The notes under the pieces were generated by a model that searched no databases, was not told the origin of the DNA, and was given only the letters and a program-made list of their open reading frames with translations. Positions 3,558-64,000 of a DNA stretch of 64,000 nt are shown in pieces; within the stretch, counting starts at the first letter, position 1, and the number at the start of each line of letters is the position of its first letter. Origin of the DNA: Sphingopyxis sp. PET50 (GTDB taxonomy: Bacteria; Pseudomonadota; Alphaproteobacteria; Sphingomonadales; Sphingomonadaceae); the NCBI RefSeq assembly GCF_025244705.1, contig NZ_CP104207.1, positions 434,001-498,000 of the forward strand. Direction: 5' to 3'. Position numbers and translations under genes: made by a program.

Positions 3558-4794
3558 TCAGAGCGCCGCCCGCCCCGGTCTCGGCGCGAGAATCTGTCTC
3601 CGGGTCTCGGCGATTGCGGTCGACCAGGCACGAGCTCCTTGCCGCATTGCCATCGCGGCCGCCTTGTCGAGGCTCTCGATGACGATAGCGCTCGAGGCGC
3701 CGGAGAGATGCTCCACGATTGCATGCTGACGAAGCAATTCCGCGGTGCACCATGTCTCGTGGTTCGTGTCCGAAGCACGATAGGCATCCAGCAATGCGCC
3801 CGCTTCGCGTAGACGACCAAGTCGGGCAAGCACGGTCGCGAGTACGCCGGTGAACCACGGAACAAACTGGCCGAAATTGCTGATGTTGCAAAGGTTGATT
3901 CCCCGGCGAAGAAGGTCTTCGGCAAGGCCCAGATTACGATGGCGGGCAAGACCGATGCCTTCCATACCGCGCGCGACGCCAAGATGACTGTCGAGCGAGA
4001 TCGGTCTCCGCGAGACTTGCGAGTTCCGCCAGCGACACGCTTGCGGCCGCCTCTTCCTGCCGCGTCAGCAGGCGAGCCGCCTGACGCCACATCAACGTCT
4101 CGCACAGTGGCAGAACGCGACCCGTGGCGCGCGCGTAGAGCACCGCCTCCTCGGGCGAGCCCCATGTGCAGTACGGATTCCGGTCGTGCAACAGCGTGAT
4201 GCGCCGATCGAGCGCCGCCGGCACATGCGGGTTCGTCGCAATCGCCTTGTCGAGCAGCGCTTCGGCGTCGGGCGTACCGTCCCTGAAGGCGTGGAGCGCG
4301 AGCCAGTAGCGTATCTCGGTCCGTGGTTCCTTGCGGCAGCTGCGGGTGATCCTGCGCGAGGCCGCCCAATGTCCTTCGGCCGCCTCCCACGCCATGAGCA
4401 GGATCCGCGTATTGTTGCGGTCGTCATTGTCCATTCGCAAGGCCCGGCGGGCATGGATCAGCGCCTCTTTCCGGTTCGACCGATGGCAATCATACCAGAG
4501 TAGCCGGGCGAGATGGTTCAGGGCGCGCACATGCGCGTCGCGATCATAGGCGGCAATCGTCTCCGGGTCAGCATGTCCGGTCCCGCCGGCCATCGCGGCC
4601 CCGATCCGGACCGCCTCGCGCAGCAGCGCCGCGGCCTCGGCCGGGACCGTGCAGGTTGCGGCCAGCACCACATAGGCGTCGATGGCATCGGGATGGTCGG
4701 CGAGGATCGCGCGCGCAAGGGGCGCGGCGCTCTCCGGCTCATCGGAGTCGAGGCGATCCCACGCCTCGTTCACCGCCATCTCATAGTCGATCAA
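3558..4794 (-). CDS. TPR-repeat protein (frameshifted as sequenced)
   Basis: Two minus-strand frames overlap at 3934-3965 and join into one protein of 411 residues if the A at 3994 is removed (plus strand GTCGAGC back to GTCGGC). The first part has helical TPR-like pairs (ESAAPLARAILADHPDAIDAYVVLAA, then EALIHARRALRMDNDD). The last 130 residues resemble the C-terminal TPR region of large ATPase/winged-helix regulators: LGRLREAGALL, then ETWCTAELLR and QGARAW. The start is TTG at 4794, eight bases after GGAG, or ATG at 4779. It could be a free TPR adaptor or the remnant of a larger regulator. No enzyme domain is visible. Confidence 0.6.
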
Positions 4795-5277
4795 TGACCT
4801 GTCTCCATCGCGCCGGTGGCCCCGCGCCGGTCCGGCCGGGGCATGTCCTCGTCCGATATGTCTTGCGGCGTGACGCGTCGAGAGTCGGGGGTGAAAAATA
4901 GTCCGGAGCGACCAGGTGCGCCGCGGCACCAGGGTGCGGCCGGGCTCTACGCCTCCCGCGGGCGCGAGGCGCCGGGCCGCTGTGCGTCCCGGCCTTCGGT
5001 CACGATCCCTGGCGCCGGCCTTGCGGCCGTACGTTGCCCGCGCGTGCCGCGCGGCGGTTCGTTGTCGGGCCTTCCCGCCGTCGTGGCGGTGGGCGGCGCG
5101 CCCTTCTGGGCGCGGCCCGGCGCCGTGCAAGCCGGCCCTTCGGGCCCGGCTTCTCCTCTTCGTTCCGGTCCTCCGGATGCGCGCCGCCTCCTGGCCGCGC
5201 CCGGCAGGTCGCAACTCGCCGCCCACCCCCACTCCGGGGAGGCCCATGGGGTTTTCGGGCGTGTGAGGAGGACAGCC
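4795..5277. other. Structured, gene-free leader upstream of the ardC-like gene
   Basis: The 483 bases contain no credible ORF but many GC-rich dyads. The clearest are a 7-bp stem with a TTCT loop at 5097-5114 and an imperfect stem with a TTCG loop at 5129-5152, followed by a pyrimidine run. A ribosome binding site (GAGGAG) ends the segment. It divides leftward cargo from the rightward maintenance block, so it should hold divergent promoters. Confidence 0.5.
5097..5152 (+). terminator. Tandem tetraloop hairpins, possible attenuator/terminator
   Basis: CGCGCCC-TTCT-GGGCGCG at 5097-5114 is followed after 14 bases by AAGCCGGCCC-TTCG-GGCCCGGCTT with one bulged C (5129-5152) and then CTCCTCTT. Two strong hairpins with stable tetraloops in a 5' leader suggest attenuation or termination before ardC. 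There is no clean T-run, so intrinsic termination is uncertain. Confidence 0.4.
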
Positions 5278-6638: not shown

Positions 6639-6729
6639 CGCGCGGCGCGTTCCGCCGCAATCGAAGCCGGTCCGCCCAAATCGCGAAATCCCGACGGACC
6701 GGCACCTTCCCGTAAGAAAGGTGACGACA

Positions 6730-9401: not shown

Positions 9402-11388
9402 ATGTCCGACGACGATGATTTCGAACCTGAACCGGGGCGCCTTCGGAGCCGGGACAGGCACCCGCGGCCGCGCAAGTTCTTGCACCGGGTTCTGGCCGCC
9501 GCGAACCTTGCCCGCGGCGGTGCCTCCGTGCGTTCGCGCCGGAGCGGCTTTACCGGCAGCCGGATCGGACGCGGCGCCGGCGTCGGACGCGTCCTGTCGG
9601 CGCGCGATCGCTTTGCGGCGTTCCGGCAGCGCCGCGTGATCGTCAAGGCGCGGCTTATATCGTTCAAGGGCAGGGGTTTCGACGGTGCGAAGGCGCATCT
9701 TCGTTACGTCGAGCGCGACGGCACGACGCGCGAGGGCGGGCGCGGCCAGCTCTATGGCGCCGACAGCGACAAGATCGATCGCAGCGCCTGGCTCGAACGG
9801 GCGCAGACCGATAGCCACCAGTTCCGCTTCATCGTCAGCCCCGAGGATGGCGCGGACTATGACGCTCTCAAACCGCTAACCCGGCGGCTCATGGCGCGCA
9901 TGGAAGAGGATCTCGGCACCCCGCTCGATTGGGTGGCGGTCGATCATTATAATACGGGCCATCCGCACACGCATATCGTCGTGCGCGGCAAGGACGGGCG
10001 CGGCAACGATCTGATCATCGCACGCGACTATATCAGCCACGGTCTGCGCGAGCGCGCGTGCGAACTGGTCGATCTCGATCTTGGCCCGCGCACCGACAAT
10101 GCGATTGAACAGCGTCTTCGTGCCGAGGTCGGGCAGGAACGGCTGACCAGCATCGACCGGGCATTGATCCGCGAGGCCGACGAGAACATCCTTGTGAGCA
10201 CCCGTGCGCGCGGCGCGTTCGACCAGACCATCCGCATGGGGCGGCTGAAGACGCTCGAACGGCTCGGGCTCGCGGCGCAGGTCGGTGCGTCGCATTGGCG
10301 CCTCGCGCCGGACCTCGCCGATACGCTGCGGCGCATGGGTGAGCGCGGCGACATCATCCGCACCATGCAGCGCACCTATGCGGCACGGGGCGATACGCCG
10401 AGCGCTGGTCGATCAGGCCATATACGATCCGGCGGTCGCCGATGCGCATGCGCTGGTCGGTCGTGTCGTCCATCGCGGCCTCTCCGACGAGATTGCCGAT
10501 CGTCATTATGTCATCGTCGAAGCGACCGATGGTCGCTCGCATTATGTCGACATCGGCAAGGGGGAGAATGTAGAGAGCCACGTGCCCGGTGCCATCGTCC
10601 GGATCGCGCCCGTCGAAACCGGCATCCGCACTTCGGATCGCACGATTGCCGAAGTCGCCGCGGCCAATGAGGGACGCTATTCGATCGACGCGCATCTTCG
10701 TCACGATGCGAGCGCGACCGAAGCCTTCGCCGAAACGCATGTCCGGAGGCTGGAAGCCATGCGCCGACTGACCCGCAACGTCGAACGCGATCCCGATGGA
10801 AGCTGGATCATAGCGCCCGATCATCTCGATCGCGCCGCCGCCTATGAGAACGCCCGCGCGAAAGACCGGCCCGTTTCCGTTGAAACGCTGTCGCCGCTGC
10901 CGCTCGAAAAGCTCGTCGATGCCGACGCCGCGACCTGGCTCGACCGAGAGCTTATTGCATCTCTTCCCGAGCCACTGCGCGATACTGGCTTCGGGCATGA
11001 CGTGCGCGAGGCGCAGGCACGGCGGCGGCAATGGCTGGTGGCCGAGGGATTGGCCGAGGAAAGGGCAGGGCAATTCTCTTATCGGAGCGGCATGATTTCC
11101 ACGCTTCAGCGGCGCGAGCTGTTGCGGGTCGCAAGCGGTCTCTCGGGCGAGTTGGGATTGCCGTTCACGGAGGCGAAGGCCGGAGAGCGGATCGACGGCA
11201 TGTACCGACGACCGGTCGACACGATGAGTGGGCGCTACGCGCTGGTCGAAAGGTCGCGCGACTTCACGCTTGTCCCCTGGCGTCCGGTGCTCGATCGTCA
11301 TGTCGGCAAATCAGTGTCGGGCATCATGCGCGACGGCTGGATCAGTTGGGCGCTTGGGCGCCAGCGCGGTGGGCCGAGTATTTCCTGA
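9402..11388 (+). CDS. VirD2-like relaxase with DUF3363 (frameshifted as sequenced)
   Basis: The relaxase would nick the transfer origin and lead the strand into the recipient. Residues 80-200 hold the relaxase fold, with the histidine metal triad in DHYNTGHPHTHIVVRG. The DUF3363 region (VGRVVHRGLSDEIADRHYVIVEATDGRSHYV) follows, and the C-terminal WRPVLDRHVGKSVSGIMR is typical. The frame breaks at 10,401, where GCCGGC reads GCCGAGC. Removing that A gives one protein of 661 residues. The coupling protein TraG and the Trb genes lie directly downstream. Confidence 0.88.
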
Positions 11389-11447
11389 CCCGGTCGCTAA
11401 CCGCCCGATCGATTCGAACACAAGATGTCAGAAAGCGGCCCCGGAGG

Positions 11448-14100: not shown

Positions 14101-14103
14101 GCG

Positions 14104-14506
14104 ATGAAGGTTCGGCAGAATCTCTATATCGATCGCGAACTCAGCGACGCGCTCGACGCGCTGGTCGTTCGGCGCGGCGGCAACAAGTCCCACATGGTCA
14201 ACGATGCTCTCAAGAGCTGGCTGGCTCGGCGGGCGACCAAGGAGGTCGACGATCTTCTCAAGGTCCGTCTCGACCGTATCTCGCGCGAGGTCGCGGCGGG
14301 CTAGGCGCGACATCGAGGTGGCGCTCGAGGCATTGGCACTGTTCGTGCGCTATCAACTTACCGTCACTGCGCCGCTTCCCGAAGCCGATGCAGCCGCGCT
14401 CGCGACGGGCAACCAGCGGTTCGAGCGTTTCATCGCGCAGCTCGGCCGCCAGATTGCCGGCGGCAAGCGGACGCTCGGCGCGAATGATCCCGAGGTGCGG
14501 CCATGA
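14104..14506 (+). CDS. CopG-type ribbon-helix-helix protein (frameshifted as sequenced)
   Basis: MKVRQNLYIDRELSDALDALVVRRGG starts a ribbon-helix-helix DNA-binding domain. The frame stops at 14,304 because of an extra T at 14,302 (GGGCTAGG for GGGCAGG). With it removed, the protein runs on (RRDIEVALEALALFVRYQLTV) to 133 residues and its stop overlaps the trbB start by ATGA, as in intact homologous operons. It probably regulates the transfer operon or helps relaxosome assembly. Confidence 0.8.
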
Positions 14507-15526
14507 GCGAGATGCTGATCGACGCCAATAACTCGCTCGGCCGACGTCGCGCGATGCTGCGCACGGCGATGGGGCCGGCGATCGCGGCGGCGCTGTCGGA
14601 TCCCGCGACCCAGGAGATCATGGTCAATCCCGACGGCATCCTGCGCCTCGACCGGCTCGGCGAAGGGCGGATCGATACCGGAACGCGCTACGATCCGGCG
14701 CAGGTCGAACGCATTATCCGCCTGGTCGCGAGCCATGCCCGGACCGAGGTCCACGCGGCATCGCCGATCGTGTCGGCGGAACTTCCGCCACATGGGGAAG
14801 GGGCAGGGGAACGGTTCGAGGGCGTGCTGCCGCCGGTTAGCCTCGCGCCCTGTTTCTCGATCCGGAAGCCCGCATCGAAGATCCATACGCTGCTCGACTA
14901 TGTGAAGGACGGCATCATGTCGGCGGATACCGCGCGGCAATTGTCGATGGCGGTGGTCGAGCGGAAGAATATCCTCGTCGCCGAGCGGCACCTCGTCGGG
15001 CAAGACGACGCTCGCCAACGCGCTGCTCGCCGAAATGGGGCATCTCGACGAGCGCGTCATCCTGATCGAGGATACGCGCGAATTGCAGTGCGCCGCGAGC
15101 GATGTCGTCGCGCTGCGCACGCGCCCGACCGGCGCCGCCGGTGCAGGCGGGGTCACCATGGCCGATCTCGTCCGGTCGACCCTCCGGCTTCGCCCCGACC
15201 GCATCATCGTCGGCGAGGTCCGGGGCAGGGAAGCCCTCGATATGCTCAAGGCCTGGAACACCGGGCACCCCGGCGGCATCGCGACGGTCCATGCGAACAG
15301 CGCCGTCGCCGCGCTCTACCGGCTCGAACAACTCGTGCAGGAAAGCGTCGTCACGGTGCCGCGGCGACTGATCGCCGAGGCGATCGACATGGTGGTGTTC
15401 ATTTCCGGGCGCGGACTGGCGCGCCGTGTCGATGCCATCGGGCGTGTCGCCGGCCTCGACGCGCAGGGAAATTATGCCGTCTGCGGCCTCACCCCCAATC
15501 CAGCCCGTCTTTCCGATGGAGAATGA
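14503..15526 (+). CDS. trbB: TrbB/VirB11-type secretion ATPase (frameshifted as sequenced)
   Basis: This is the hexameric traffic ATPase of the mating channel. The N-terminal domain reads QEIMVNPDGILRLDRLGEG and ends in FSIRKPASKIHTL. The frame breaks exactly in Walker A: an A at 14,984 turns GCCGGCGGC into GCCGAGCGGC. Without it the loop reads GGTSSGKTTLANALL. After it come VILIEDTRELQC (Asp box), RLRPDRIIVGEVRG (Walker B) and GHPGGIATVHANSA (His box). The repaired length is 340 residues, normal for TrbB. Confidence 0.93.
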
Positions 15527-15527
15527 C

Positions 15528-19328: not shown

Positions 19329-19453
19329 GCTGGGGGGAGGGCGGCTTCCCCCCCGTCCAAAGCCGCCCTTCCTTCGTCGCGGGCGTCGCAAGGCACCCCT
19401 CCAAGCTCGGCCCATGACGCCCGCGACATCATTCGCTTTTGCAGGAATCCGAC

Positions 19454-20755: not shown

Positions 20756-20758
20756 ATC

Positions 20759-21595: not shown

Positions 21596-22411
21596 TCCGT
21601 GCCGTCCTCTTGTCGGCGAGCTGCTTCGCGCTCGCCATTCCCGCCGCCGCGCAGACAGCCGCGCGCGTCGATGCCGCCAACAGAGCGGCGCTGCGTGAAC
21701 CGACGAGAGCGGGCTATATCAGTGCCGTTCAAGTTTACCCGTGGTCGGAAGGCACGCTCTATCGCCTCTACGCCGCGCCCGAACGCGTGACCGATATCGC
21801 GCTGCAGCCTGGCGAGACGATCACCTCGGTCGCGGCAGGCGATACGGTGCGCTGGACGGTCGGCGACACGAGCAGCGGGAGCGGGCAGGGCAAACGGACG
21901 CATATTTTGGTGAAGCCCTTTTCCGCCGGGCTGCGCACCAATTTGCTCATCACGACCGATCGGCGCGTCTATCACATCGAACTCGAAAGCCGGTTGAGCG
22001 GCGCAATGGCGGCACTTTCCTGGACCTATCCGCAGGACGAGCTGATCGCTCTGCGCCATGACCGGGAGGCTGCCGAGGCGGCAATGCCAGTGGCTTCGGG
22101 CCTTGCCGTCGCAAATCTCAATTTCAACTACGCGATCTCGGGCGACAAGCCGGCATGGCGACCACTGCGCGCGTTCGATGATGGCCGAGCAAACCTTCAT
22201 CGAGTTTTCGCCGAGCATCGCCGTCGGTGAAGCGCCGCCGTTGTTCGTCATCGGCGAGGAGGGTGAGGCACAGCTCGTCAACTACCGTGTCGCGGGGCGT
22301 TACTATGTCGTCGATCGCCTGTTCGGTGCGGCTGAACTGCGCCTTGGCGGCAAAAAGCAGAAGGTCGTGCGGATCGAGACGGCGCAGCCGAAGCGGGGGA
22401 AGGGCAAATGA
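21592..22411 (+). CDS. trbG: TrbG/VirB9-type outer-membrane core protein (frameshifted as sequenced)
   Basis: A signal peptide (LLSASCFALAIPAAAQT) is followed by the VirB9 beta-rich fold: VYPWSEGTLYRLYAAPERVTD, ALQPGETITSVAAGDTVRW and LLITTDRRVYHIELES. The frame breaks at 22,188 (GGCCGAGC for GGCCGGC). Repaired, it continues QTFIEFSPSIAVGEAPPLFV and VNYRVAGRYYVVDRLFGAAELR to a normal 272 residues. The start overlaps trbF and the end overlaps trbI. Confidence 0.92.
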
Positions 22412-23632
22412 CCGATCCTGCCGTTTCCCCCGCCAGCGCCGCGCCTGACCAAGGCCGATCCGGAAACGCTGGTCCTGCGCGCGGCGCCCGGTCGCGTCAC
22501 TCGCTTCCGCCGCGGAGCGGTCATCGCCATTGCCGCCGCCGGATCGACCGCGATTGTCGGCGTCGCATGGCTCGCGCTGAAACCGGCAAGCATCGGCATC
22601 GTCGCGCCCGCCGATGACAAGCCGCATGGCGCGAAGGCGGCGCCCGATGCGCTTGCGGGCGCGCCGACCAGCTATGGCGACGTGCCGCCGCTCGGTGCTC
22701 CGCTTCCCGGAGATTTGGGGCGTCCGATCCTCAATCATCAACGCGGGCCGGAAATGCTGCCGGAAGATGAGGGCGACGAAGCCGCGCGGCGTGCGGCCCA
22801 GGAGGCGGAGACCGAGCGCCAGCGGGTCGCGGCCGAACAGCGTGCAGCGCGGGAATCCGGGGTGATGCTGCAAATCGCCGGCAACCGGGCTTCCGCCAGC
22901 CCTGTTGCGGTCCCGGCAGTGCGGGACTCCGAATTGCCGCCGATCGCGCAGACCGAGGAAGCGACCGACCCCACTGGACAGCAGCGGAAGAACGCGATGG
23001 TGGGGCGCGCCAATGAGACCGCCGATGTGAGCCCGCACAGGCTGGTCGCGCCTATCTCGCGCTGGACCTTACAGGCCGGGAGCGTCATTGCGGCCAGTCT
23101 CATCACCGGGCTTAATTCGGACCTTCCGGGACTGGTAACGGCGCAGGTCACGGAAAATGTCTATGACAGCGTGACCGGGCGAAGCCTGCTCATTCCCCAT
23201 GGCTCGCGGTTGATCGGCAGTTACGATAGCGTCGTCGCCTTCGGCCAGAGCCGTGCGCTCGTCGTATGGCAGCGGATTATCCTGCCCGACGGGTCGTCGG
23301 TCCGCATCGACAATGTTCCTGCCACCGACACACAGGGCTATGCGGGCCTTTCCGACAAGATCGATCGGCACACATGGCAGCTCTTGAAGGGCGTCGCGCT
23401 GTCGACACTGCTCGGCGTCGGCACCGAATTGAGTTTCGGCAGCACCGAAAGCGATCTCGTTCGCGCTATTCGCGAGTCCGCGCAGCAGGGCGGTGCGCGT
23501 GCAGGCGACCAACTTGTCGCGCGAGGCCTTGATATCCAGCCGACCGTGCGCGTCCGTCCGGGCTGGCCGCTTCGGGTCATCGTCCACAGGGATATTGTCG
23601 TCGGGCGGGCTTGGGGAGGCGCGCGTGGCTGA
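22408..23632 (+). CDS. trbI: TrbI/VirB10-type energy-transducing channel protein (frameshifted as sequenced)
   Basis: The ATG at 22,408 overlaps the trbG stop, but the frame is lost near 22,442 (GCCGCGC where GCCGGC or GCCCGC would restore it). Repaired, it reads LTKADPETLVLRAAPGRVT, one membrane anchor (AVIAIAAAGSTAIVGVAWLAL), a charged linker and the VirB10 barrel domain (LQAGSVIAASLITGLNSDLPG, then GSRLIGSYDSVVAFGQSR and LLKGVALSTLLGVGTELSF). The total is 407 residues. It spans both membranes and senses the ATPases. Confidence 0.92.
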
Positions 23633-38711: not shown

Positions 38712-40852
38712 ATGGCGATCGACAGGCTGGAGCATCTGCTCGCCCGGATGACGGTCGACGAAAAGGTCGGCCAGCTCTCCCTCTATTCGGCCGATGTCCA
38801 GTGGACCGGCGATCCGGTGAATCCCGGGATCAGCTTCGACGCGCCCGAAAAGCGGATCGACGACATTCGGGCGGGGCGGGTCACCGGGGTCTTCAACCTG
38901 CCGGGCGAGGCGCATGTACGGCGATTGCAGCGCATCGCGGTCGAGGAATCGCGGCTCGGCATTCCGCTGCTGTTCGGGGCCGACGTGATCCACGGCTTTC
39001 GTACCGCCTTTCCGGTGCCGCTTGCCGAGGCGGCAAGCTTCGAGCCCGACCTGTCGCGACGAACCGCCGAGGCATCGGCGGCCGAGGCCGCGGCGGAGGG
39101 CATCCACTGGACCTTTGCCCCGGGTGCCGATGTCTGCCGCGACGCGCGCTGGGGCAGGGCGATCGAAAGCCATGGCGAAGACCCGTTCCTCGCCGCCTCC
39201 TTCGCCGCGGCGCGCGTGCGCGGCTTCCAGGGCGATCTGTCCGACCGCCGGCATGTGATGGCGACGGTCAAGCATTTCGCCGCATATGGCGCGGCCGAGG
39301 CGGGGCTCGATTACAATACGGCGGAGCTGTCGCCGACGACGCTCGCCGAGGTGTATCTGCCGCCCTATCGCGCCGCGCTGGCGGCGGGAGCGGGGGCGGT
39401 GATGACCGCGTTCAACGATATCGACGGGGTGCCGTGCAGCGCCAACGCGAAGCTGCTGACCGGCCTGCTGCGCGATCAATGGGGGTTCGAGGGCTTCACC
39501 GTTTCCGATTTCAATTCGGATCGCGAGGTGATCGCCCACGGGCTCGCCGAGACCCCGCGCGAAGCGGCGCGGCTCTGCTTCCTCGCCGGGCTCGACATGT
39601 GCATGGGCAGCGGCCTTTACGCCGACCATCTTGCGGAGCTTGTCAGCGTGGGCGACGTGCTGCGGCGGCGGCGCTCGACGCGGCCGTTATGCGCGTGCTG
39701 AAGGCGAAGGACGCGCTGGGACTGTTCGACGAACCCTATCGCGGGATCGGTGAGGCGGCGGATCGCTCGGCAGCGCGGGCGCTGGCGCGCGATGCGGCAA
39801 CGCGCTGCCCGGTGCTGCTGCGGAACGAAGGCGGCCTCCTGCCGCTGAAGCGTGGCACCAAGATCGCGCTGATCGGGCCGTTCGGCGACGACAAGGCGCA
39901 TCTGAACGGTGCATGGGCGCTGTTCAGCGACGGGCGGGATTCGGAAAGCCTTGCCGAAGGGCTGACGGACGCCATCGACGCGGACCTGCTGCGCGTCGAG
40001 GCGGGATCGGAGATCGAAGGGCCGATTCGCGGCGGCTTCGCGGCCGCCGAGCGCGCGGCGCTGTGGGCCGATGTCGTGGTGCTTGCGCTTGGCGAGGGGC
40101 AGCATATGTCGGCGGAATCGCGTTCGCGAACCGATCCGGCGGTTCCCGCGGTGCAGATGGAACTCGCGCGGGCGATGCGGCGAACGGGCAAGCCGCTGGT
40201 GACCCTGTTGCGCACCGGACGTCCGTTGGTGATTCCCGAACTCGCCGGTTTGTCGGATGCGCTGCTCGTGACCTGGTTCCTCGGCGCCGCGACGGGAAGC
40301 GCGGTTGCCGATCTCCTGCTCGGCCGCGCCGCGCCGAGCGGGCGATTGCCGATGAGCTTTCCGCGCCACGTCGGGCAGCTTCCGATCTATTATGCGCGCA
40401 AGCCGACCGGCAGGCCACCGGGCGACGTGCCGGGTCCCTTCACCGCGCGCTATATCGACGCGGCGCCGGGCCCGCTTTTCCCCTTTGGCTTCGGGCTCGG
40501 ATATGGCCGGGCGGATTATGGCGCGGTGCGGCTCGACAGCGCGGTTCTGCCCTGGGACGGCGAGATCAGGGCGTCGTGCATCCTGTGCGAAACGCGCGGG
40601 GTCGCGGTCGAGGATACGGCGCAACTCTACATTCGCGACATCGCCTCGATGCCCGTGCGGCCCGGGCGCGAGCTCAAGGGATTTCGCAAGCTTGCGGTTC
40701 CGGCAGGCGGCATGGCGAAGGTCGATTTCGGCATCACGCGCTCGCTGTTGGCGCGGGCCGACGGCACGGTCGAACCCGGCGCGTTCGATCTTTGGATCGC
40801 GCCGCATGCCGAGGCCGGCGAGCCGGTGCGTTTCGTGCTGGAGGCACCGTGA
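38712..40852 (+). CDS. GH3 beta-glucosidase (frameshifted as sequenced)
   Basis: A GH3 glycosidase of 713 residues after repair: LLARMTVDEKVGQLSLYS, LLFGADVIHGFRTAFPVPLAEAASF, WGRAIESHGEDPFLAA, VKHFAAYGAAEAGLDYN, and GFTVSDFNS with the nucleophile aspartate. The C-terminal domain (GLLPLKRGTKIALIGPFG) and fibronectin-like end follow. One base is missing at about 39,660, where GCTGC stands for a likely GCCGGC. No signal peptide is visible, so it would act on imported glucosides, for example after rhamnose has been removed. Confidence 0.92.
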
Positions 40853-42206
40853 TGGAAACCCGGCTCGGCTGGAGACGCACGATCGCCTTTGGTTCGGGCG
40901 ACTTCGCCTTCAACCTTTACTGGCAGAGCCTCTCGCTCTTTCTGCTCTTCTATTATACCGAGGCGGTCGGGCTTTCGCCGCAGCGGCGGCGGGTCTGCTC
41001 TATATGACCGCGTCGATCTGGGACGGGATCGTCGATCCGCTGATCGGCGTGGCGGCCGACCGGACGCGGACCCGCTGGGGGCGCTATCGCCCGTGGCTGC
41101 TGCTGGGCGCGGTGCCGCTTGCGCTCGGCTTTTGCCTTCTCTACTGGCCGCCGCCCTTTGAGGGAGCGACGCTTGTCGCGGTGGTGATGGCGGCGCACTT
41201 CCTTTTTCGCAGCCTCTATGCGGCGGTGAACGTCCCCTATGTCGCGCTGACGGCACAGATTACGCGCAGCGGCGCCGATCGCGCGAATATCGCGGGGGCG
41301 CGCCTGGTGTTCAGCACTTGCGCCGGCGTGATCGTCGCGCTCGCGACGCCGCGCATCGCAACCTGGGTGACGGGCAGCCCCGACGGCGCGCGGGGCTATT
41401 TCGCCGCCGCCGCCGTCTTCGCGCTGCTTGCGACGCCGATCCTCTTCTTCGTCTTTTTGACGACGCGCGAAGGCGCGGGCGCCGCCGCCGCGCACCGCCC
41501 GGCGTCGTGGGCGGAACGCCGCGCGGTGCTGTGCAACCGCGCCTTCTGGACCGTGGTGCTGGCGGGGACGCTGTTCGTCGCCTGCTACACCGCCTTCGCC
41601 AAATCGCTGCTCTATTACTTCAAATATGTGCTCGAGGCGCCGGACGCCGGGCCGACCGCGCTGGCGCTCGCCGGGGCGAGCGGGCTGGTCGCGGTGCCGG
41701 CGTGGATGTTCGCCGCGCGCTTCGCCGCCAAGCGGACGATCTGGCTGATCGGCTGCGGCCTGTTCGGCGCGGGGTTGGTGCTTTTCGGTCTGCTGCGCTT
41801 CGACGCGGTGTGGCAGATGAATATCTTCGTCGTCGCGATGCAGGCGGCCTTTCTCGGCATCGTCTTCGCCTATTGGGGGATGCTGCCCGACACGGTCGAA
41901 TATGGCGAGTGGCGTACCGGGCTGCGCAGCGAGGGTCTGCTCTTCGGACTCGCGCTGCTGTTCCAGAAGGTGGCGCTGGGCGTCGGGGCGGGGCTGTTCG
42001 GCGTGGCACTGGGTAGCGTCGGTTTCGTCGCCAACCGGCATCAGAGCGCCGCGACGATCGAGGGCATCCGCACGATCATGGTGCTGATCCCGCTCGCCGG
42101 CGTCGGCCTGTCGGCGGCGCTCATCTTTCTCAACCCGCTCCGGCGCGGCGTCCACGACCGCATCGTCGCCGAGATCGCTGCCCGCCGCGAAGGAGAAACG
42201 ATATGA
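40852..42206 (+). CDS. GPH-type (MelB-like) sugar symporter (frameshifted as sequenced)
   Basis: A 12-helix inner-membrane cation-sugar symporter of 451 residues after repair: FGSGDFAFNLYWQSLSLFLLFYYTEAVGL, SIWDGIVDPLIGVAADRTRTRWGRYRPWLL, YWGMLPDTVEYGEW. These are the loop motifs of the melibiose/glycoside-pentoside-hexuronide family. One G is missing after 40,980 (GCCGC for GCCGGC). Its start overlaps the GH3 stop and its stop overlaps the GH106 start, so it probably imports the glycoside that the cytoplasmic GH3 cleaves. Confidence 0.9.
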
Positions 42207-45200
42207 GCATCCGCACCTTCGCGATCGCCCTCGTCCTTCCCCTGATGCTGGCGTCGGCCGCGGCGCAGCCGTCCGATCCGGTGCGCGAAGGATTCGAAGA
42301 ACCGCCGCACGAGGCGCGACCGTGGCTGTGGTGGCACTGGATGGACGGCAACGTCACCTCCGAGGGCATCGACCGCGATCTTGCCTGGTTCGAGCAGATC
42401 GGGATCGGTGGCTTCCAATTGTTCGACGTCGCGCAGCCAGGCGTGCCGCAACTGGTCGACCGGCGGTTGATCTATATGCACCCCGACTGGCAGGCCGCGT
42501 TCCACCGAGCGATCGCCGGAGCGGCGGCGCGCGGCATCGAGGCGGGCATCGCTTCCTCCCCCGGCTGGAGCGAGACCGGCGGCCCGTGGGTCGCGCCCGA
42601 GGACGCGATGAAGAAGCTGGTGTGGGGCGAGACGCTGATCGAAGGCGGTCGACGCTTCACCGGCCGCCTCGCGCCGCCGCCGGGGGTGCCCGGCCCGTTC
42701 CAGGATATCGCCCGGAACGACGAGGCGAAGGCCACCGCCTTCTATCGCGACGTCGCCCTGCTCGCCTGGCGTGTGCCCGCCGACGCCGTGCCTTTGCCCG
42801 AGGCGCGGGTCAGCGCGAGCGGCGGGACGCTCGACGCCGCGTTGCTCACCGGCCCGGCGCTCGAGCGCGCGCCGGGCGTCGTGCTGCCGCTCGCTGCCGC
42901 ATCCCCGCAATGGATCCGCTTCGACTATGACCGGCCGCAGACGATCCGCTCGGTGGTGGTCGGGCTGACGCGGCCCGGGCCGTTCGATGTCGCGCCGCTG
43001 GCGACGCTGGAAGCGAGCGACGACGGCGCGCATTTCCGGCCCGTCCGCGACCTGCCGTTATCGGCCTTTCACCAGGGCACGATTTCCTTTCCGGCGGTAA
43101 CGGCGCGCAGCTTTCGCGTGGTCTTCCGGCCATGCGGCGGGGATGGGCAATCTGTGGCGCCGCGTGCTCAACCTCCGTGCGCCGGGGATCGCCAACACGC
43201 GCTATGACAGTCCGCCGCCGGTGCAGGATGTGCGGCTGCAACGCCTGATGCTGTTGCCCGACGCGCGGGTGACGCGTTTCGAGGAAAAGGCGGGTTTTGC
43301 CGCCGCCCCCGATTATTATGCGCTTGCGACGCCTGAGGCTGGTGCGGGATCGACGATTCCGCTTTCGGAAGTCGTAGACCTCACCGCGCGGCTGAAGCCG
43401 GACGGGATGCTCGACTGGACCCCGCCGCCGGGCCGATGGCAGGTGCTGCGCCTCGGCTACTCGCTGACCGGCGCGGTCAACGCCCCCGCGCCCGCCGAAG
43501 CGACGGGCTATGAGGTCGACAAGCTCGATGCAGGGGCGGTCGCCGCCTATATGGGGCGCTATCTCGACACCTATCGCGCCGCGTTGCCGCCCGACCTGGT
43601 CGGCGCGCGCGGGGTCACCACCATTCTCAACGACAGCATCGAGGTCGGCAGCCAGAACTGGACCCCGGCGATGATCGCCGCGTTCAAGGCGCGCCGTGGC
43701 TATGATCCGACGCCATGGCTTCCCGCGCTGACCGGCCGGATCGTCGGCAGCGCCGAGGCGAGCGACCGCTTCCTGTGGGATTATCGTGCGACGATCGCCG
43801 ACCTGCTCGCCGCGAACCATTATGGACAGGTCGCGGCCAGCGCGCGCGCCGCGGGCCTCCGCATTCGGGCCGAAGCGCTCGAGGATCACCGCCCGGCACT
43901 GGGCGACGACATGGCGATGCGTTCGCACGCCGACGAGCCCGCGGGCGCGATCTGGGCGCCGAACGAGACCAGCGGCTTCGAGGCGACGTCGATTGCCGAC
44001 CTCAAGGGCGCGGCGTCGGTCGCGCATCTTTACGGCCGCGATCCGGTCGCCGCCGAGGCGTTCACCTCCGCACTCGCGCCGTGGACGGGCTCGCCGCGCC
44101 GGCTGAAGCGCGTCGCCGACACCGCCTTCGCGCTGGGCGTTACGCGCCTGATGCTGCACAGCACGGTGCACCAGCCGGTCGAGGGCAAGCTGCCCGGGCT
44201 GACGCTCGGCATCTTCGGCCAATATTTCAATCGCAACGAAACCTGGGCGGGGCAGGCGCGCGCCTGGACCGACTATCTCGCACGGTCGCAATATCTGCTC
44301 CGCCAGGGGCGTTATGTCGCCGACATCGCCTATTTTTACGGCGAGGAAGCGCCGCTGACCGGGCTCTATGGCGAGCATGAGGTTGCCGACATACCCCCCG
44401 GCCACGCTTTCGACTTCGTCAACGCCGACGCGCTGCTCGACCTGTTGCAGGTTCGCGACGGGCGGCTGGTTACGCCTTCGGGGATGGAATATCGCGTGCT
44501 CCAGCTCGGCGGGACGTCGTCGCGCATGACACTGAAAATATTACGCAAGATCGCTGCATTGGCCGATGCCGGCGCGGTGGTGATCGGCGCGCGGCCCGTT
44601 GCCTCGCCCAGCCTCGCTGACGATCCCGCCGAATATGAGCGGCTGACTGCGCGGCTATGGGGCGGGGGCAGGATATGGGACATGCCGGCCGCCGAGGCGC
44701 TGGCGCGCGCGGGTATCGCGCCCGACTGGCGGGTCGCCGGCGATACCGTGCCGCTGCGCGTGCTCCATCGCGTCTCCGGCGAGCGCGACATCTATTTCCT
44801 CGCCAGCGGCGCACGCGGGGCCGTGCGGACCGAAATATCGTTCCGGGTGGCTGGGCGCGTTCCCGAATTGTGGGATGCCGACAGCGGCGCGGTGACGACG
44901 CTGCCCCATCGCGTGGAGGAGGGGCGGACCATTGTGCCCCTGGCCTTCGACCCCGACGGTGCGGCCTTCGTCGTCTTCGGCGAGGGCGAGGGGGCGGCGG
45001 CCACGGCGGCCGCCCCGCGCGAAGAACTGCTGCGCGACCTGTCGAAGGGCTGGATGCTCCGCTTTCAGGCGGAACGCGGCGGTCCCGAAGCCGCGATCGC
45101 CGCCGATGCCGGATCGTGGAGCGACAGCGCCGATCCGCGTATCCGCTATTTCTCCGGCACCGGCACCTACAGCCGCGAGATCGCCCTGGCACGCCGCGAC

Positions 45201-54461: not shown

Positions 54462-57124
54462 ATGAAGGTGATGACTGCAGCGGGTTCGGTTTTTCTTGCG
54501 CGGCGCGATATCCGGTGCCGCGGCGCTTCAGCGCTGGCATGCGCGGCGGCACTCATGGCGGCGAGCGTCGCCCATGCCCAGGATGCCGACGCCGATGCCT
54601 CGGGCAGCGAATCGGAAGATGCCGCGATCGTCGTCACCGGTACGCTGCTGCGCGGCGTTGCGCCGGTCGGCACCAATGTCATCGGCGTGACCGAGGAAGA
54701 GGTGATCGCCACCGGCGCCGCCTCGGCCAACGACCTGCTCGCCTCGATTCCGCAGGTCGGCAATTTCGGGACAATCCCGGCGGGTGTCGGCAATTTCGGC
54801 AATCCGATCGTGCGCCCCAATATCCGCAATCTCGGCGCCAGCGGGGGGTCGACCACGCTCGTGCTGATGAACGGCCATCGCATGGTCGGCGCGGGCATCC
54901 TGCAGACCAGCTTCGATCCTTCGGTCATCCCGCCCGACGTGATCAAGCGCGTCGACGTCATCCCTGACGGCGGCTCCTCCATCTATGGTTCCGACGCGAT
55001 CGGCGGCGTGATCAACTTCATCACCCGCGACCGCTACGACGGCATCGGCGTCAACGCGCGCTACGGCTTTGCCAAGGACTATCAGACGGTCGACGCCAGC
55101 ATCATAGCGGGCAAGGACTGGGGTTCGGGCTCGGTCTTCATCTCCTATGCCTATGCCTGGCACGACGATCTGATCGGGCTCGACCGCGATTATGCGACCG
55201 CCGACCAAGCCGCACGCGGCGGCGGCGATTTCCGCAGCACCGCCTGTTCGCTCGCGAACATCACCGTCGGCACGACGACCTATGCACTGCCCGGCCGCGC
55301 GCCGGGGACGCTCAACCGCTGCGACCAGACCGATTATGCCGCCATCTATCCGCGCGAGGAGCGGCACAGCGTCTTCTGCCGGCCTGACCCAGGAACTCAG
55401 CGACAGCGTCTATTTCAATCTTTCGGCCTATTGGTCGAAGCGCGACACGGTGCATCGCACGGCGCAGAGCAGCCAGAGCGGGACGATCACCGCGCTCAAT
55501 CCCTTCTTTCAGCCGATCGGAGCCGAGACGTCGCACAATGTCGCTTTTGCCTTCGACGATGTGTTCGGCCCGGCCAATGTCAGCCCGTCGAGCTTCACCT
55601 CGTACGGCGTCACCCCCAGCTTCGAATTCGAGCTGGGCGGCGGCTGGCAATTGCGCGCGCTCGCCAATTTCGGGCGCAGCGAAAATGAATCGACCGAAGA
55701 TTCGATCAACGCCACCGCAGTGACGCTGGCGCTCGCCGGAACGACGGCAGCGACCGCGCTCAATCCCTATAATCTGTCGGCCACTTCGCCGGCGGTGCTC
55801 GCGGCGATCAACGATTTCGTCAACTATGGCGAGGCGACGCAGGAACTGGCCGAAGGGCGGTTCGTGCTCGACGGGCCGCTCTTCGCGATGCCGGGCGGTG
55901 ACGTCCGTCTCGCGGTCGGCGCCGAATATCACTACGAGAATATCGAGTCCTTCACCGGCAGCGGCCCGCAAAATGCCATCACGGGCATGAATGCGTATAC
56001 CTCGCGCACGGTGAAGTCGCTGTTCGGCGAGGTGCTGGTGCCGATCTTCGGGTCGGACAATGCGACGCCGGGTTTCTACAGCCTCGAGTTGTCGGGCTCG
56101 ATCCGCTACGATGATTACAACGATGTCGGGAGCACGACCAATCCGAAGATCGGCGTGACCTGGAAGCCGTTCGAGGCGCTGACCATCCGCGGCAATTACG
56201 GCACGTCCTTCCATGCGCCGAGCCTTGCCGACCTAGGCAATTCGGTCGATTCGCGCGTGCAGGTGCTGCCGTTCAGTCCGTTCCGCGCGCCCGACAGCTC
56301 GCCCTTCGACGCGCTGCGCCCGACGCTGGTGATCGCCGGCGGCAACGCCAATCTGAAGCCCGAGACGGCGGATACCTGGTCGCTCGGCTTCGATCTCAAG
56401 CCCGCGGCGATCGAGGGGCTCGTCGCCAGCGCGACCTATTTCAACGTGAAGTTCAAGAATGCGATCGCCGTACCGCCGGTGACGTCGCCCGTGCTCTTCT
56501 CGAACCCCGCCTATTCGAGTTTCTATATCCTGAACCCGACGCTTGCGCAGGCGCAGGCGGCGGCGGGCGATCTGCGCATCGACGGCGTCCCGAACCTTGC
56601 GACGCTTTATGCGATCAGTTCGCCCTATGTGCTCTTCTTCGCACAACGCGCCAACTTGGGCGCGGTGAATGTCGACGGCATCGACTTCAATCTCGCCTAT
56701 AGCCAAGCCGACGGGCTTCGGTTCGCTGAACGCTGCCTTTGCGGGCACCTATTTGCTGAACCGCGAAACGCAGGTCGTTCAGGGTGAACCCTTCAGCGAC
56801 GACCTCAAGAACGGCGTCGGCCGCTTCTTCTTCACCGCATCGCTCGGCGGCACGCTCGGCGACTTCACGGCGCGCGCGACGCTCAATCATCGCGGCGGCT
56901 ATCCGCTGCTTGGCGTACCGCCGCAGACGCGCGTGTCCGCCTTCAACACGGTGGATCTCTTCTTCAGCTATAATCTGGACGATCTGCTGCCGAACACGCT
57001 GCTGACGCTCAACATCGACAATGTGCTGGACGAAGATCCGCCCTTCCTGAACAATGCCGCCGGCTATACCAATGGCAGCACGCTGGGCCGTCTGATATCC
57101 TTCGGTATTCGCACCAAATTCTGA
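54462..57124 (+). CDS. TonB-dependent receptor 2 (frameshifted as sequenced)
   Basis: An outer-membrane receptor of 886 residues after repair, a clear paralogue of receptor 1: IVVTGTLLRGVAPVGTNVIGV, RVDVIPDGGSSIYGSDAIGGVINFIT and a C-terminus GRLISFGIRTKF. The signal peptide ends MAASVAHAQ. The ATG at 54,462 follows AGGGAGG. Two extra bases, T at 55,377 beside GCCGGC and C near 56,703, break the frame. It leads the second-arm operon and shares an upstream motif with the rhamnose core. Confidence 0.93.
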
Positions 57125-57134: not shown

Positions 57135-60100
57135 GTGTTGTTGCCGACCGGAAGCTTGCGGGGCCTGATCCTGGGCGCGCTGGCGGCGGTCGGCATCGCG
57201 CTCGCCTCCGCCGCCACGGCGCAGGGCGAACCGTCGGCGCTCCGCACCGAATATGCAGAGGCGCCGCTCGGGCTCGACGTCGCCGCGCCGCGCTTCGCCT
57301 GGCGGTCGCCGGTCGCGCAGCAAACCGCCTATCGGATTCGCGTCGCGACCTCGGCGGAAGCTCTCGAACGCGCGCCGCTGTGGGACAGCGGGCGGGTCGA
57401 ATCGGATGCGAATGTGCAGATCGCCTATGCCGGTCCGGCGCTCGCTGCGCGCCAGCGCTATTGGTGGCAGGTGCAGGTGTGGGATGCCGATGGCCGGGCG
57501 AGCGGCTGGAGCGCGCCCGGCTGGTGGGAAATGGGGCTGCTCGCGCCGTCCGACTGGCAAGCGCGGTGGATCGGCGGGCCGCAGCGGCGCGACCATGACT
57601 GGAGCGACCTGACGCTCGATGTCGATCTGACGCTGACCGGCAAGGCGGTGGACATATTGTTCCGCGCGCTGCCGCACGGCAAAAGCTATGGCGACGCCTA
57701 TGTCTGGACGCTCGCCGAGGACGGGAACGGGCCCGAGCTGATCCAGTCGGTGCGCCGCTACCCTGGCGGCGCCAGTTCGGCGGTCAAGACCGAGCGGCTG
57801 GGTCAGGTGAAGCTTCCGGAAACGATCAGGGGACGGCGGATCCGGCTAACGATCCGGGCCGAGGGCGCGCGGATCGTGACCAGTTTCGACGGGACGGTGG
57901 TCGCGACGATCGAGGATGCGGCGCATTCGCACGGCACGATCGGCTTTGCCTAGCAAGGAAGCTGAATCGGCGATCGTGCATGGCGTGCGCGTTTCGGGAA
58001 GCGGCAGCGCAGCCGTGACGGTCGATTTCGCGGGCGGCGACAATCCCTTCACCGGCGGCGATGTGACCGGGGCGGGGCTGGTGGTCGCGAGCGGCGTGCG
58101 CGGCGTCGACCTGGTGCTGCCGATCGAAAGTCCCGCGCCGCTGGTGCGCCGCGCCTTTCGCGTGACGAAGCCGATCGCGAGCGCGCGCCTCTATGTCGCG
58201 GGGGCGGGGATGCCGCGGCTGTCGATCAACGGACAGGCCGTGGGCTCGCCGCTCGGCGCCGGTTTCACGGCCTATGACAAGCGGGTGCTGACTTACACCC
58301 ATGACGTGACCGCGCTGCTGCGGCGGGGCGAGAATGTCGCCGACGCCGAACTGGGGCGCGGCTGGTACGGGCTGACCGATCCCAATGAATGGTATTTCCA
58401 CGCCGCGCCCTGGCACGGCGAACCGGCGCTGAAAGCGCAGCTCGAAATCGCCTATGCCGATGGCACGCGCGAGACGGTCGCGACCGACGGCAGCTGGCGG
58501 ACGGTGTCGGGTCCGACGCTGAACGATTCGGTGCATCGCGGCGAGCGTTTCGACGCGCGCCGCGTTCCGGCGGGCTGGGACGTGCCGGGTTTCCGCGACC
58601 GCAAATGGCAGGCAGCGACGCTGGTCGCCGGACCCGCTCGGCCGCCTCGTCGCCGCCAATTCGGAAACGATCGAACCGGTCGATTCGATCGCTCCGGTCG
58701 CGGTGGCGGAGGCGGCGCCGGGCATCCATGTCTTTGACTTCGGGCGCATCGTCGCTGGCTGGCCGGTGCTGACGGTCGCGGGCGCGGCGGGCACGACGGT
58801 GTCGATGGTCGCGGGCGAGCGCATCGCCGACGACGGCCGGGTGGTTCCCGCCGCCGGCCTGATCGACGCGCAGTTGCAGACCGATCGCTATACGCTGGCG
58901 GGGAGGGGCGAGGAGCGATGGGAACCGCGCTTCGGCTATCGCGGCTTTCGCTATGTCGAGGTGCAGGGCTTTCCCGGCACGCCGCCCGAAGGCGCGCTGA
59001 CCGCGCGCATCGTCCATTCGGCGGTCGCGCGCACCGGCCGCTTTGCGAGCAGCAATCCGTTGCTGGACCGGATCGACGCGGCCGCGACCGCGACGATCCT
59101 GAACAATCTGCACGGCTTCGTCACCGACACGCCGACCTATGAAAAGAACGGCTGGACCGGCGACGCGCAGGCGTCCGCGGGGGCGGCGGCGCGCAGCCTC
59201 GACATCGCGCGCGTCTGGACGAAATGGCTCGGCGATTTCCGCGATGCTCAGTCCGACAAGGGTGAACTGCCCGAAATCGCGCCGACGACCCCCTATTATG
59301 GCTATGAGGACAGCCCCGGTTGGAACGTCATCTGGGGACCCACGACGCCATGGGACGTCGCGGCGATGATCCTGCCGTGGGAACTTTATACCACCTATGG
59401 GGACACGCGCGTGCTGGCCGACAATCAGGACATGCAGCGGCGGCTGGTCGACTATACCGCGACCTTCATCAAGGCGCCCGGCTACCAGCGGGCGGCGGGC
59501 CTGTCCGAATGGGCAGCCGTCGGCGGGATGGATTTCACCAATGCGCGCGGGGGCGGCATCGACGCGGTGACGACCGCCTATTTCTTCCATCAGGCGAACC
59601 TGCTCGCGAAATCCTCCGCCATCGTCGGCAAGGCCGAGGATGCAGCGCGCTATGCCAGGCTCGCGGAGGACATCCGCACGGCCTATAACGCGCGCTACTG
59701 GGACGCCGCGAACGGCTGGTATCGCACCGTCGATGCAAAGGGGGCCGCCGGGCCGCCGACACAGGTGCAGAATGTCCTGCCGCTCGCCTTCGGCATGGCG
59801 CCGAAGGGGGCGGAGCAGGGAGTCGCCGACGCGATCGCGCGCGATGTAGACCGCCAGGGGCTGCGCACCGGGGTGTTTGGTACGCGCTATCTGCTCGAAA
59901 TATTGAGCGATTACGGCCATGCCGACATCGCCTATCGCGTCGCGACGCGCACCGACGAGCCGGGCTGGGGGTGGTGGATCGCCAACGGCCATTCGACCAT
60001 GTTCGAGACGTGGAGCCTGAACAGCCGCTCGCGCGATCATCATTATTTCGCCTCGATCGCCGACTGGCTGCGTCAGCGGGTCGCGGGCCTGCGCCCCGGC

Positions 60101-60397
60101 GCGCCGGGATACAAGGTCGTGCTTGTCAAGCCCGCGATTCCGGACGGGCTGGCGAACGCCGAGGCGGCGATGGACACGATCCACGGCCGCGCCTTTTCGG
60201 GATGGACGGTCGCGGACGGCCGAGCTGACGCTGACCGCCGAGGTTCCGCCGAACACGCGCGGCGAAATCTGGGTGCCCGAGGCTTTCGGGGCGGTGACCG
60301 CCCCGTCGGCGCCGAGGCGGTGCGGCGGGAGGCGGGCCATGCCGTCTATCGCACCGGTCCCGGCACGTTCATTTTCACCACCGGAGGGACCCCATGA
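57135..60397 (+). CDS. GH78 alpha-L-rhamnosidase (frameshifted as sequenced)
   Basis: An exported GH78 rhamnosidase of 1,086 residues after repair. The signal peptide ends SAATAQG. N-terminal beta-sandwich domains contain RYWWQVQVWDADGRASGWS. The (alpha/alpha)6 barrel has FVTDTPTYEKNGWTGDAQ, the family's acid-residue region, then WGPTTPWDVAAMILPWELYTTYGD and a late GWGWWIANGHSTMFETW. Breaks are at 57,951 (GCCTAGC), 58,632 (GCCGGAC) and 60,223 (GCCGAGC), plus a missing base near 60,303. The start is GTG 57,135 or TTG 57,138/57,141 after GAGGAGG. Confidence 0.93.
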
Positions 60398-61866: not shown

Positions 61867-61877
61867 AGGATATGATC

Positions 61878-62732
61878 ATGCGTCTCTCCATTCTGGCCGC
61901 CGGTGCGCTCGCATTGGCCGCGATCCCCGCCTGCGCGTGGGAGGTGATCCGCCTGTCGTCCGACCCGGTCCCGGCGACGTCGGCCGAAGTGACCGAAACC
62001 GGCCCCTTCGGCACGATCGTGCGCAATGTGTCGGATGCGACGCTGACCGCCTATCTGCCCGAGGAAGGCAAGGCGAACGGCACCGCGGTGATCGTCGCGC
62101 CGGGCGGCGCCTTTCACATGCTGTCGATCGACAATGAAGGCGCGGCGGTCGCGAAATGGCTGAACAGCCAAGGGGTGACCGCCTTCGTGCTCAAATATCG
62201 CCTGATCGAGACCGGCGCCGATTTCCCGCTCAGCCTGATGCGCTATCTGAACGATCTTCCCGGCCTGCGCGCCGCGGTCGAGCCGCTGCGCCCGCTCGCG
62301 ACGGCGGACGGCGAGGAAGCGGTCGCCTGGGTGCGTGCCAATGCCGCGCGCTATGGGGTGAAGCCCGACCGCGTCGGCCTGATGGGCTTTTCGGCGGGCG
62401 GTGCGGTCACGGTGTGGACGCTGCTCGCCGACAAGCCCGAGAGCCGCCCCGATTTCGCCATCGCCATCTATCCGGGCCTGCTGCCCGATACGATCGCGGC
62501 GCCGAAGGATGCCCCGCCGCTGTTCGTTGCGGTCGCCGACGACGACAAGCTCGCGCATGGCGACAGCCTCCGGCTGGCCGAGGCGTGGACCGGCGCCGCC
62601 AAGTCCGCGAAGCTCGTCACCTATTCCGCGGGCGGCCACGGCTTCGGCATGGCGAAAAGCGGCAAGCCGAGCGATGCTTGGCCGGACGATATGGCCGGGT
62701 GGATGCGAAGCCAGGGACTGCTCGGCCAATGA
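61878..62732 (+). CDS. Alpha/beta hydrolase, acetyl-xylan-esterase-like
   Basis: The 284-residue exported hydrolase has a signal peptide (LAAGALALAAIPACA), VIVAPGGAFHMLSIDNEG, the nucleophile in GLMGFSAGGAVTVW, PPLFVAVADDDKLAHG (acid) and SAGGHGFGM (histidine), a pattern of BD-FAE/AXE1-like carbohydrate esterases. I take the ATG at 61,878, seven bases after GAAGGA. The ATG at 61,872 is too close to that site. It overlaps the following esterase by four bases. Confidence 0.88.
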   Translation: MRLSILAAGALALAAIPACAWEVIRLSSDPVPATSAEVTETGPFGTIVRNVSDATLTAYLPEEGKANGTAVIVAPGGAFHMLSIDNEGAAVAKWLNSQGVTAFVLKYRLIETGADFPLSLMRYLNDLPGLRAAVEPLRPLATADGEEAVAWVRANAARYGVKPDRVGLMGFSAGGAVTVWTLLADKPESRPDFAIAIYPGLLPDTIAAPKDAPPLFVAVADDDKLAHGDSLRLAEAWTGAAKSAKLVTYSAGGHGFGMAKSGKPSDAWPDDMAGWMRSQGLLGQ

Positions 62733-64000
62733 GGGCGGTATCCTTCCTCCTGCTCGCCGGCACCATGTCGCTTGCCGCCTGCGCAACCGGCGAAACGGCA
62801 TCCGCTCCCGCGGTCCCGGCGGTGCAAAAGGTCGATAGCTGCGAAGCGCTGGCCGGTCTGGGGCTGGCGTATGGCAAGGTCGATGCCGCGACCCCGCTTT
62901 CCAGCGGGGCGGTCGTCAACCTGCAGGCGGGGCAACCGGGCCTGCCTGCGCCCGCCGCCTTCTGTCGCGTGCAGGCGACGCTGACGCCGGTGCCGGGATC
63001 GTCGATCAAGGTCGAAGTGTGGCTGCCCGAGCGCAGCGGCTGGAACGGCAAGCTGATGGGCGCGGGCAACGGCGGTTTCGGCGCGAACATGCTGCTGCCC
63101 TCCCTGCTGATGCGCGGTGCGGTGCAAAAGGGTTATGCGGCGGTCGGTACCGACATGGGGCATGTCGGCGAGAGCGACGTCGATGCAAGCTGGGCGTTGA
63201 ACGCGCCCGAGAAGGTGCGCGATTATGGCTGGCGCGCCAATCATGCCGGCGCCGAGACCGCGAAAGAGGTGATCGCGGCCTATTATGAGGCGCCGCTCGC
63301 CGCGAGCTATTTCCACGGCTGTTCGGACGGCGGGCGCCAGGCGCTGACGTTCGCGCAGCGCTATCCCGCCGACTATGACGCGATCGTCGCGGGCGCGCCG
63401 GCGATCCCCTGGACGCGCATGGCAAGCGCCTTTGCCACCAATGCGATCGCGGCCGGCAAGCCCGGCGGCGACCTCTCGCCGGCGAAACTCAAACTGTTGC
63501 AGACCGCCTCGCTCGGGGAGTGCGACGCGCTCGACGGCGTCACCGACGGCGTGATCGAGGACCCGCGCGTCTGCCGCTTCGACCCGGCGAAGCTTGCATG
63601 CCGGGGGAGGGCGGCGCCGACTGCCTGACGCCGGCCGAGGTCGCGACCGCGACGCACTTCTACGAAGGACCCAAGACCGCCGACGGCAAATCCTTCTACC
63701 CCGGTTTCGCGCCGGGTGCCGAGGCTGAGGCGGGCACCTGGAGCCAGTGGCTGACGGGCGCCAATTCGCAACATGCGAAATTCTCGACGCAATTCTTCCG
63801 CTATTTCGTGCATGGGAAGGCCGACTGGCAGCTATCGGATTTCGACCTCGCGCGCGACTATCCGCTCGCAAAGGAGCGCGTCGGCGGCGATCTCGATGCC
63901 GATGGCGTGGCGCTCGCCCCCTTCTTCAAGCGCGGCGGTAAGCTGCTGCTCTATCACGGCTGGAACGATGCCGCGATCCCGCCGGGCAGCACGATCGCCT
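62729..64000 (+). CDS. Tannase/feruloyl esterase family lipoprotein 2, cut by window end
   Basis: The paralogue of the enzyme at 29,601. It starts RAVSFLLLAGTMSLAACATG, with a lipobox (LAAC), so it may be membrane-anchored. It has WLPERSGWNGKLMGAGNGGFG, HGCSDGGRQALTFAQRYPADYD with the nucleophile, and GGKLLLYHGWNDAAIPPGS at the window edge. A base is missing after 63,604 (GCCGGGGG for a likely GCCGGCGGG), which creates an early stop. The C-terminal HC histidine lies beyond base 64,000. Confidence 0.9.

Follow-up and report, generated by a model that had tools for sequence, protein, structure and literature searches.

The genome of Sphingopyxis sp. PET50 (assembly GCF_025244705.1, contig NZ_CP104207.1) contains many genes interrupted by single-base insertions or deletions (indels), and our analysis indicates that most of these indels are very likely errors of the consensus sequence, arising systematically at GCCGGC sites marked by a NaeI-type methyltransferase and absent from the organism itself. 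An initial annotation of one stretch of 64,000 bases (bases 434001 to 498000 of the single-contig genome of 3,796,965 bases, hereafter the window) had reported frame breaks in many genes, most of them at GCCGGC, and had attributed them to systematic consensus error at a modified GCCGGC in an unpolished nanopore assembly. The top rank of this word among all 6-mers at breaks and the restriction-modification genes described below both support that explanation, from which we infer that the site is methylated and that the platform was nanopore. The G+C content is 66-67%, and genome completeness is estimated at 87.04 despite the single contig; the genus has 12 further listed genomes in one contig, all at 99-100%.

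Frame breaks were called with a codon-composition hidden Markov model of seven states, trained on the sequence itself and blind to motifs, which allows frame shifts in each direction at a rate of 1 in 10,000 per base and returns a shift posterior for every base. Shifts explicable as a junction between two overlapping genes were excluded. In a genome sample of 864 kilobases (kb), consisting of the window and 40 stretches of 20 kb, the model called 334 shifts, 267 of which were not junction-like (309 per megabase, Mb); these counts are conservative because the junction filter removes 67 of the 334 calls, including four sites of the initial annotation (14302, 39660, 40980 and 63604). Shift intervals holding a given 6-mer or a one-base variant of it were then compared with random coding intervals of equal length for all 2080 distinct 6-mers. 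GCCGGC ranked first, being found with its variants at 170 of the 267 breaks (63.4 expected, z 15.3), so that the genome-wide enrichment, which had been proposed as a check, is present in the sample. Moreover, a GCCGGC-type word lay within 20 bases of 133 of the 267 breaks, compared with 8.8% of random positions.

GCCAGC was the second 6-mer (163 of 267 breaks, 67.9 expected, z 13.4), and it ranks so near GCCGGC because GCCGAGC is one base from both. Intact words tell the two apart: GCCGGC occurs intact in 39 of the 217 insertion intervals (5.7 expected), followed by CGGCCG (21), GCGCGC (15), GGCGCC (12), GCCAGC (4) and CCCGGG (0), and intact GCCGGC is also enriched at the 50 deletion-type breaks (8 versus 1.5 expected). 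GCCAGC was rejected as the true word for its rarity in this intact form and, in addition, by the Ala-Gly pair found at the rpoC break in 12 of the 12 relatives in which that place was located. The forms met in the insertion intervals were GCTCGGC (35), GCCGAGC (32), GCGCGGC (20), GCCGCGC (17), GCCGGCC (11), GCCTAGC (10), GCCAAGC (7), GCTAGGC (4) and rarer ones. About half of the coding occurrences of GCCTAGC in the sample stand at a break, and this word and its complement have 314 copies in the genome, the highest number among 80 genomes of the genus. Enrichment extends to words containing CTAG, to which we give little weight because a TAG stop may itself attract the called position. Only 5.7% of the coding copies of GCCGAGC lie at a break, so this word is usually an ordinary one. 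The A insertions of the window had been described as all of one plus-sense form, even in minus-strand genes; genome-wide, neither orientation prevails (32 versus 35) and the two are not clustered (same-segment concordance, p 0.18), and the one-strand form is a small-sample effect.

The error word led to a matching enzyme. The only PF00145 5-methylcytosine (m5C) methyltransferase of the genome is encoded at 2,469,712-2,470,617 by an open reading frame of 318 amino acids (243 bits) containing the m5C methyltransferase motifs PCPPF and ENV. Its stop overlaps the start of a NaeI homologue of 297 amino acids, which scores 186.1 bits against PF09126 (cut-off 25), aligns along NaeI residues 33-283 of PDB 1ev7 with an E value of 3.2e-28 and has no match in NCBIfam. 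The residues aligned with NaeI E70, D86, D95 and K97 (numbered from the chain positions in the alignment) are identical in the homologue. These four are catalytic residues in NaeI. NaeI recognises and cuts GCCGGC. A gene for a Vsr mismatch endonuclease of 135 amino acids, whose family repairs the lesion left when m5C is deaminated, comes next after the NaeI homologue, and all three genes are open. The whole row spans about 2.4697-2.4720 Mb, outside the window. The NaeI/NgoMIV-type methyltransferase predicted by the initial annotation has its counterpart in this sole PF00145 gene, directly beside a NaeI homologue.

The comparison with other genomes agrees with this assignment. Among the 80 genomes searched in the genus, PF09126 has a match in one, the strain studied here. 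A scan of genome contigs yielded 126 relatives; among the best 80 of the 126 loci, a relative of the methyltransferase was present in the flank at 79, the exception being cut near a contig end, and a Vsr relative also occurred at 14. Compared with the type IIE restriction endonuclease NaeI itself (PDB 1ev7, 1iaw), the endonuclease is homologous, keeps E70, D86, D95 and K97, and is overlapped here by an m5C methyltransferase gene; however, it is distant in sequence, has a valine aligned with Leu43 and is followed by a Vsr gene. Judged from its family and from the error word, the methyltransferase is probably active with GCCGGC specificity. A working NaeI must have GCCGGC protected, and modification would follow if the endonuclease is active, as seems likely.

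According to these data, we propose that the C5 cytosine methyltransferase of the NaeI-type system would mark GCCGGC on both strands, because the NaeI-like endonuclease would otherwise cut the chromosome. A long-read basecaller untrained on this mark, most likely of nanopore type, would meet an altered signal and misread a share of the sites alike in most reads, and such errors would survive where accurate short-read polishing is lacking. The typical misreading would carry an extra base within the site (GCCGAGC or GCTCGGC) or directly beside it, while GCCTAGC and GCTAGGC would carry an extra base plus a substitution.

Essential genes bear on whether the indels exist in the organism. The coding sequence of rpoC is split between two frames (683 and 824 codons), with the switch at about genome position 679,218, where a GCCGAGC starts at 679,217. 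In all 16 of 16 relatives the gene is a single frame of 1427-1532 codons, and in the 12 of them where the place of the break could be located by a peptide pattern, the codons are GCC or GCG, then GGC. rpoB likewise switches frame near its end (677,053-677,069), with GCCGAGC at 677,064. No cell would be expected to survive with rpoB and rpoC both broken, so these breaks are not in the organism. Control scans of 200 kb in each of four genomes, taken for comparison without regard to sequencing platform, gave 6, 5, 8 and 7 breaks (25-40 per Mb). The first two counts belong to relatives (G007 and G016), with 0 and 1 break near GCCGGC-type words; the other two belong to the NaeI-bearing Sphingomonas echinoides ATCC 14820 and Sphingomonas baiyangensis (10,551 and 5,000 N bases among the 200,000, respectively), again with 0 and 1. 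A NaeI gene alone thus does not entail such indels.

These results bear directly on the two explanations in which the sequence would be correct. Many genes might have been broken by recent mutation at GCCGGC, with the restriction-modification system as one conceivable driver, and this would account for the recurrence of one word at the breaks of unrelated genes in a strain that has a system for this word; nevertheless, the intolerable breaks of rpoB and rpoC at the same word and the near absence of such breaks in the two other NaeI-bearing genomes make it highly unlikely, and m5C deamination is known to give substitutions, not indels. The initial annotation had also judged mutation the less likely cause. 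The recurrence of one word could equally suggest programmed frameshifting at GCCGGC-like sites, but the breaks include both gains and losses of a base and take many word forms, only the small fraction of coding GCCGAGC given above stands at a break, and rpoC is unbroken in all 16 relatives, so we regard this explanation as extremely improbable.

Several observations weigh against systematic error at marked GCCGGC. No GCCGGC-like word is present at 68 of the 267 breaks; among insertions alone the one-base-variant test gives GCCAGC 126 and GCCGGC 121, and among the 50 deletion-type breaks GCCGGC falls outside the top eight of this test. Only 5.5% of coding GCCGGC is at a break, most sites being read intact, and depletion of GCCGGC relative to the genus is not clear, as the ratio of GCCGGC to the reversed word is unremarkable and too variable among the 80 genomes. 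dnaE, examined as a further essential gene, has no frame break. In a study of Listeria (PMC10687267), modification errors are described as mismatches, not indels. The 68 residual breaks and the high scores of GCCAGC and CCGGCG are what would be expected of a generic low-quality long-read consensus, with errors that follow G+C-rich or homopolymer context and a NaeI system present by coincidence. Such a consensus, however, would not readily produce the excess of intact GCCGGC in insertion intervals next to fewer CGGCCG and no CCCGGG, nor would it explain why the genome turned out to carry the enzyme that the word had pointed to, when its family occurs in a single one of the 80 genomes searched in the genus. 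Generic low quality is therefore an improbable account of the data, and systematic error at GCCGGC remains the one we favor.

The 68 residual breaks may need a different cause. CGAGATC or its complement is present in 10 of these intervals (1.1 expected), with approximately 7.9 breaks at 230 coding occurrences (one orientation), and it may be a second modified word belonging to another methyltransferase of the genome. Other methyltransferases include a CcrM-like enzyme, one of N6/N4 type with 507 amino acids, and one at 1.900 Mb. The last, also of N6/N4 type (about 1.9004-1.9011 Mb), matches its profile in two adjoining pieces (2-121 and 125-220) and is probably itself broken by the same kind of error.

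Errors of this kind have been implicated in several reports. According to PMC6591954, Dcm motifs (CCWGG, Klebsiella) hold about 70% of the consensus errors with the Oxford Nanopore Technologies basecallers of its day, and PMC12506013 reports for Neisseria assemblies that 74.76% of the erroneous indels fall on a methylated position or one base away. The likeness to these cases and to that of Listeria is that errors pile up at the word of a resident methyltransferase and persist into the consensus; here, in contrast, the word is GCCGGC, the errors are mostly single-base insertions, and methylation is deduced from the genes. The RIMS-seq paper (PMC8565308) gives GCCGGC for Aeromonas hydrophila NEB724, so m5C at GCCGGC is known elsewhere, and a review (PMC4081073) gives NaeI with an apparently misprinted site. 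A literature search whose coverage leaves out most subscription journals listed nothing on sequencing errors at GCCGGC, and among the matches listed there was no direct precedent for assembly errors revealing methyltransferase specificity. The kind of error is already known, while the GCCGGC case is new.

By extrapolation, the genome would hold roughly a thousand false frame breaks, which are liable to pass as pseudogenes and to leave its gene content understated. The finding is mainly an assembly artefact around a biologically ordinary system, with some methodological value: the word at the errors correctly foretold a NaeI-type system, which lies two megabases away, so that assembly errors can serve as evidence for methyltransferase specificity. 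It is possible, although we hold it as a tentative idea, that indel scars in unpolished public assemblies form a readable record of methylation, that genomes sequenced by long reads alone could yield many uncharacterised methyltransferase specificities, and that the CGAGATC residue marks a second word.

Within the window, the model called 25 shift sites, 17 of them not junction-like, and GCCGGC, GCCNNGC or GCNNGGC was present inside the interval at 14 of these 17; by chance, a comparable set of words would be met in 27.1 of 108 insertion intervals. The initial annotation had spoken of at least 23 breaks, while its list holds 22 positions. The words it named were found at all 22, and 18 of the 22 carry a posterior mass of at least 0.8 within 40 bases. 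The remaining four do not reach this level, namely 11641 (0.00, non-coding according to the model), 34234 (0.05), 36147 (0.27) and 57951 (0.08), and for 22188 and 35927 the nearest call has a 90% credible interval that does not include the position (22142-22172 and 35894-35917, respectively). The intact GCCGGC examples it cited are present, with coordinates off by 1-3 bases (they lie at 790, 9576 and 12313).

Pfam scans were run separately on the pieces either side of the breaks in Table 1. At 10401, 22188, 30497, 37322, 43132 and 63604, a single Pfam family resumes in the other frame. At 33305, 39660, 55377, 57951 and 58632 neighbouring domains of one protein kind stand in two frames, whereas at other sites a domain ends early (35927, 56703, 60223) or starts late (14984, 40980) and the opposite piece has no match. 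The individual sites are listed in Table 1.

Table 1. Candidate frame breaks in the window (window coordinates; posterior of the frame-shift model and Pfam matches)
Position	Strand	Site	Posterior	Flanking evidence
3990..4003	-	Frame break, word GTCGAGC	1.00	Interval without GCCGGC-like word; neither side has a Pfam match
10397..10406	+	Frame break at GCCGAGC, relaxase/DUF3363 gene	1.01	DUF3363 profile 2-52, then 57-373 in other frame
14301..14304	+	Possible frame break, junction-like	0.82	Downstream piece without Pfam match
14979..15000	+	Frame break at GCCGAGC, T2SSE-family (TrbB-like) gene	1.00	Downstream T2SSE profile starts at 153 of 370
22142..22190	+	Frame break between intact GCCGGC (22149) and GCCGAGC (22184), CagX/TrbG gene	0.99	CagX 2-126, then 138-196
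22424..22454	+	Frame break near GCCGCGC, trbI start	1.04 (within 40 bases)	TrbI domain whole in one piece
30488..30500	-	Frame break at GCCGAGC, tannase-family gene	1.00	Tannase 1-165, then 182-489
33301..33310	-	Frame break at GCCGCGC, TonB-dependent receptor	1.00	Plug/barrel domains in two frames
35894..35934	+	Frame break beside GCCGGC (35929), GH5 gene	1.00	GH5_C interrupted at 57 of 87
37313..37325	+	Frame break beside intact GCCGGC, carboxylesterase	1.00	COesterase 5-322, then 428-500
39660..39670	+	Frame break of missing-base type, junction-like, GH3 gene	1.00	GH3 N-terminal 1-300 of 316, C-terminal domain in other frame
40970..40991	+	Frame break of missing-base type, junction-like, MFS_2 transporter	1.00	MFS_2 starts at profile position 32
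43124..43135	+	Frame break at GCCATGC, GH106 rhamnosidase	1.00	GH106 2-173, then 169-739
55377..55384	+	Frame break beside intact GCCGGC, TonB-dependent receptor	1.00	Plug/barrel in two frames
56699..56718	+	Second frame break in the receptor of 55377, GCCAAGC	1.00	Barrel profile ends at 334 of 436
57948..57954	+	GCCTAGC in alpha-L-rhamnosidase region	0.08	Consecutive domains Rha78A_N and Bac_rhamnosid_N flank it in two frames
58624..58642	+	Frame break at GCCGGAC or GCTCGGC, rhamnosidase	1.00	Bac_rhamnosid_N 1-151 of 172, then Bac_rhamnosid 4-102 in other frame
60212..60225	+	Frame break at GCCGAGC, rhamnosidase	1.00	C-terminal domain cut at 43 of 78
63588..63607	+	Frame break, junction-like, tannase-family gene	1.00	Tannase 3-216, then 233-384

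Of the 30 copies of GCCGAGC in the window, only 4 have a strong break within 10 bases. Its opposite-strand counterpart, GCTCGGC, stands at a break at 27076 and, ambiguously, at 58636. Three calls that are not junction-like are absent from the earlier list (23590, 27077 and 60301); the first of them sits between TrbI and DUF2274 and could simply be a normal junction of genes.

Two groups of genes were noted in the window. Positions 9528-24765 hold conjugation genes (relaxase/DUF3363, T2SSE, CagX, TrbI), and 44% of 15500-23500 matches a plasmid of Sphingomonas paeninsulae with trb genes at 77% identity. Positions 29601-64000 hold genes of the tannase family, GH3, GH5, GH106 and GH78-type rhamnosidases, together with carboxylesterase, MFS and TonB-receptor genes, which looks like a cluster for plant-glycoside use.

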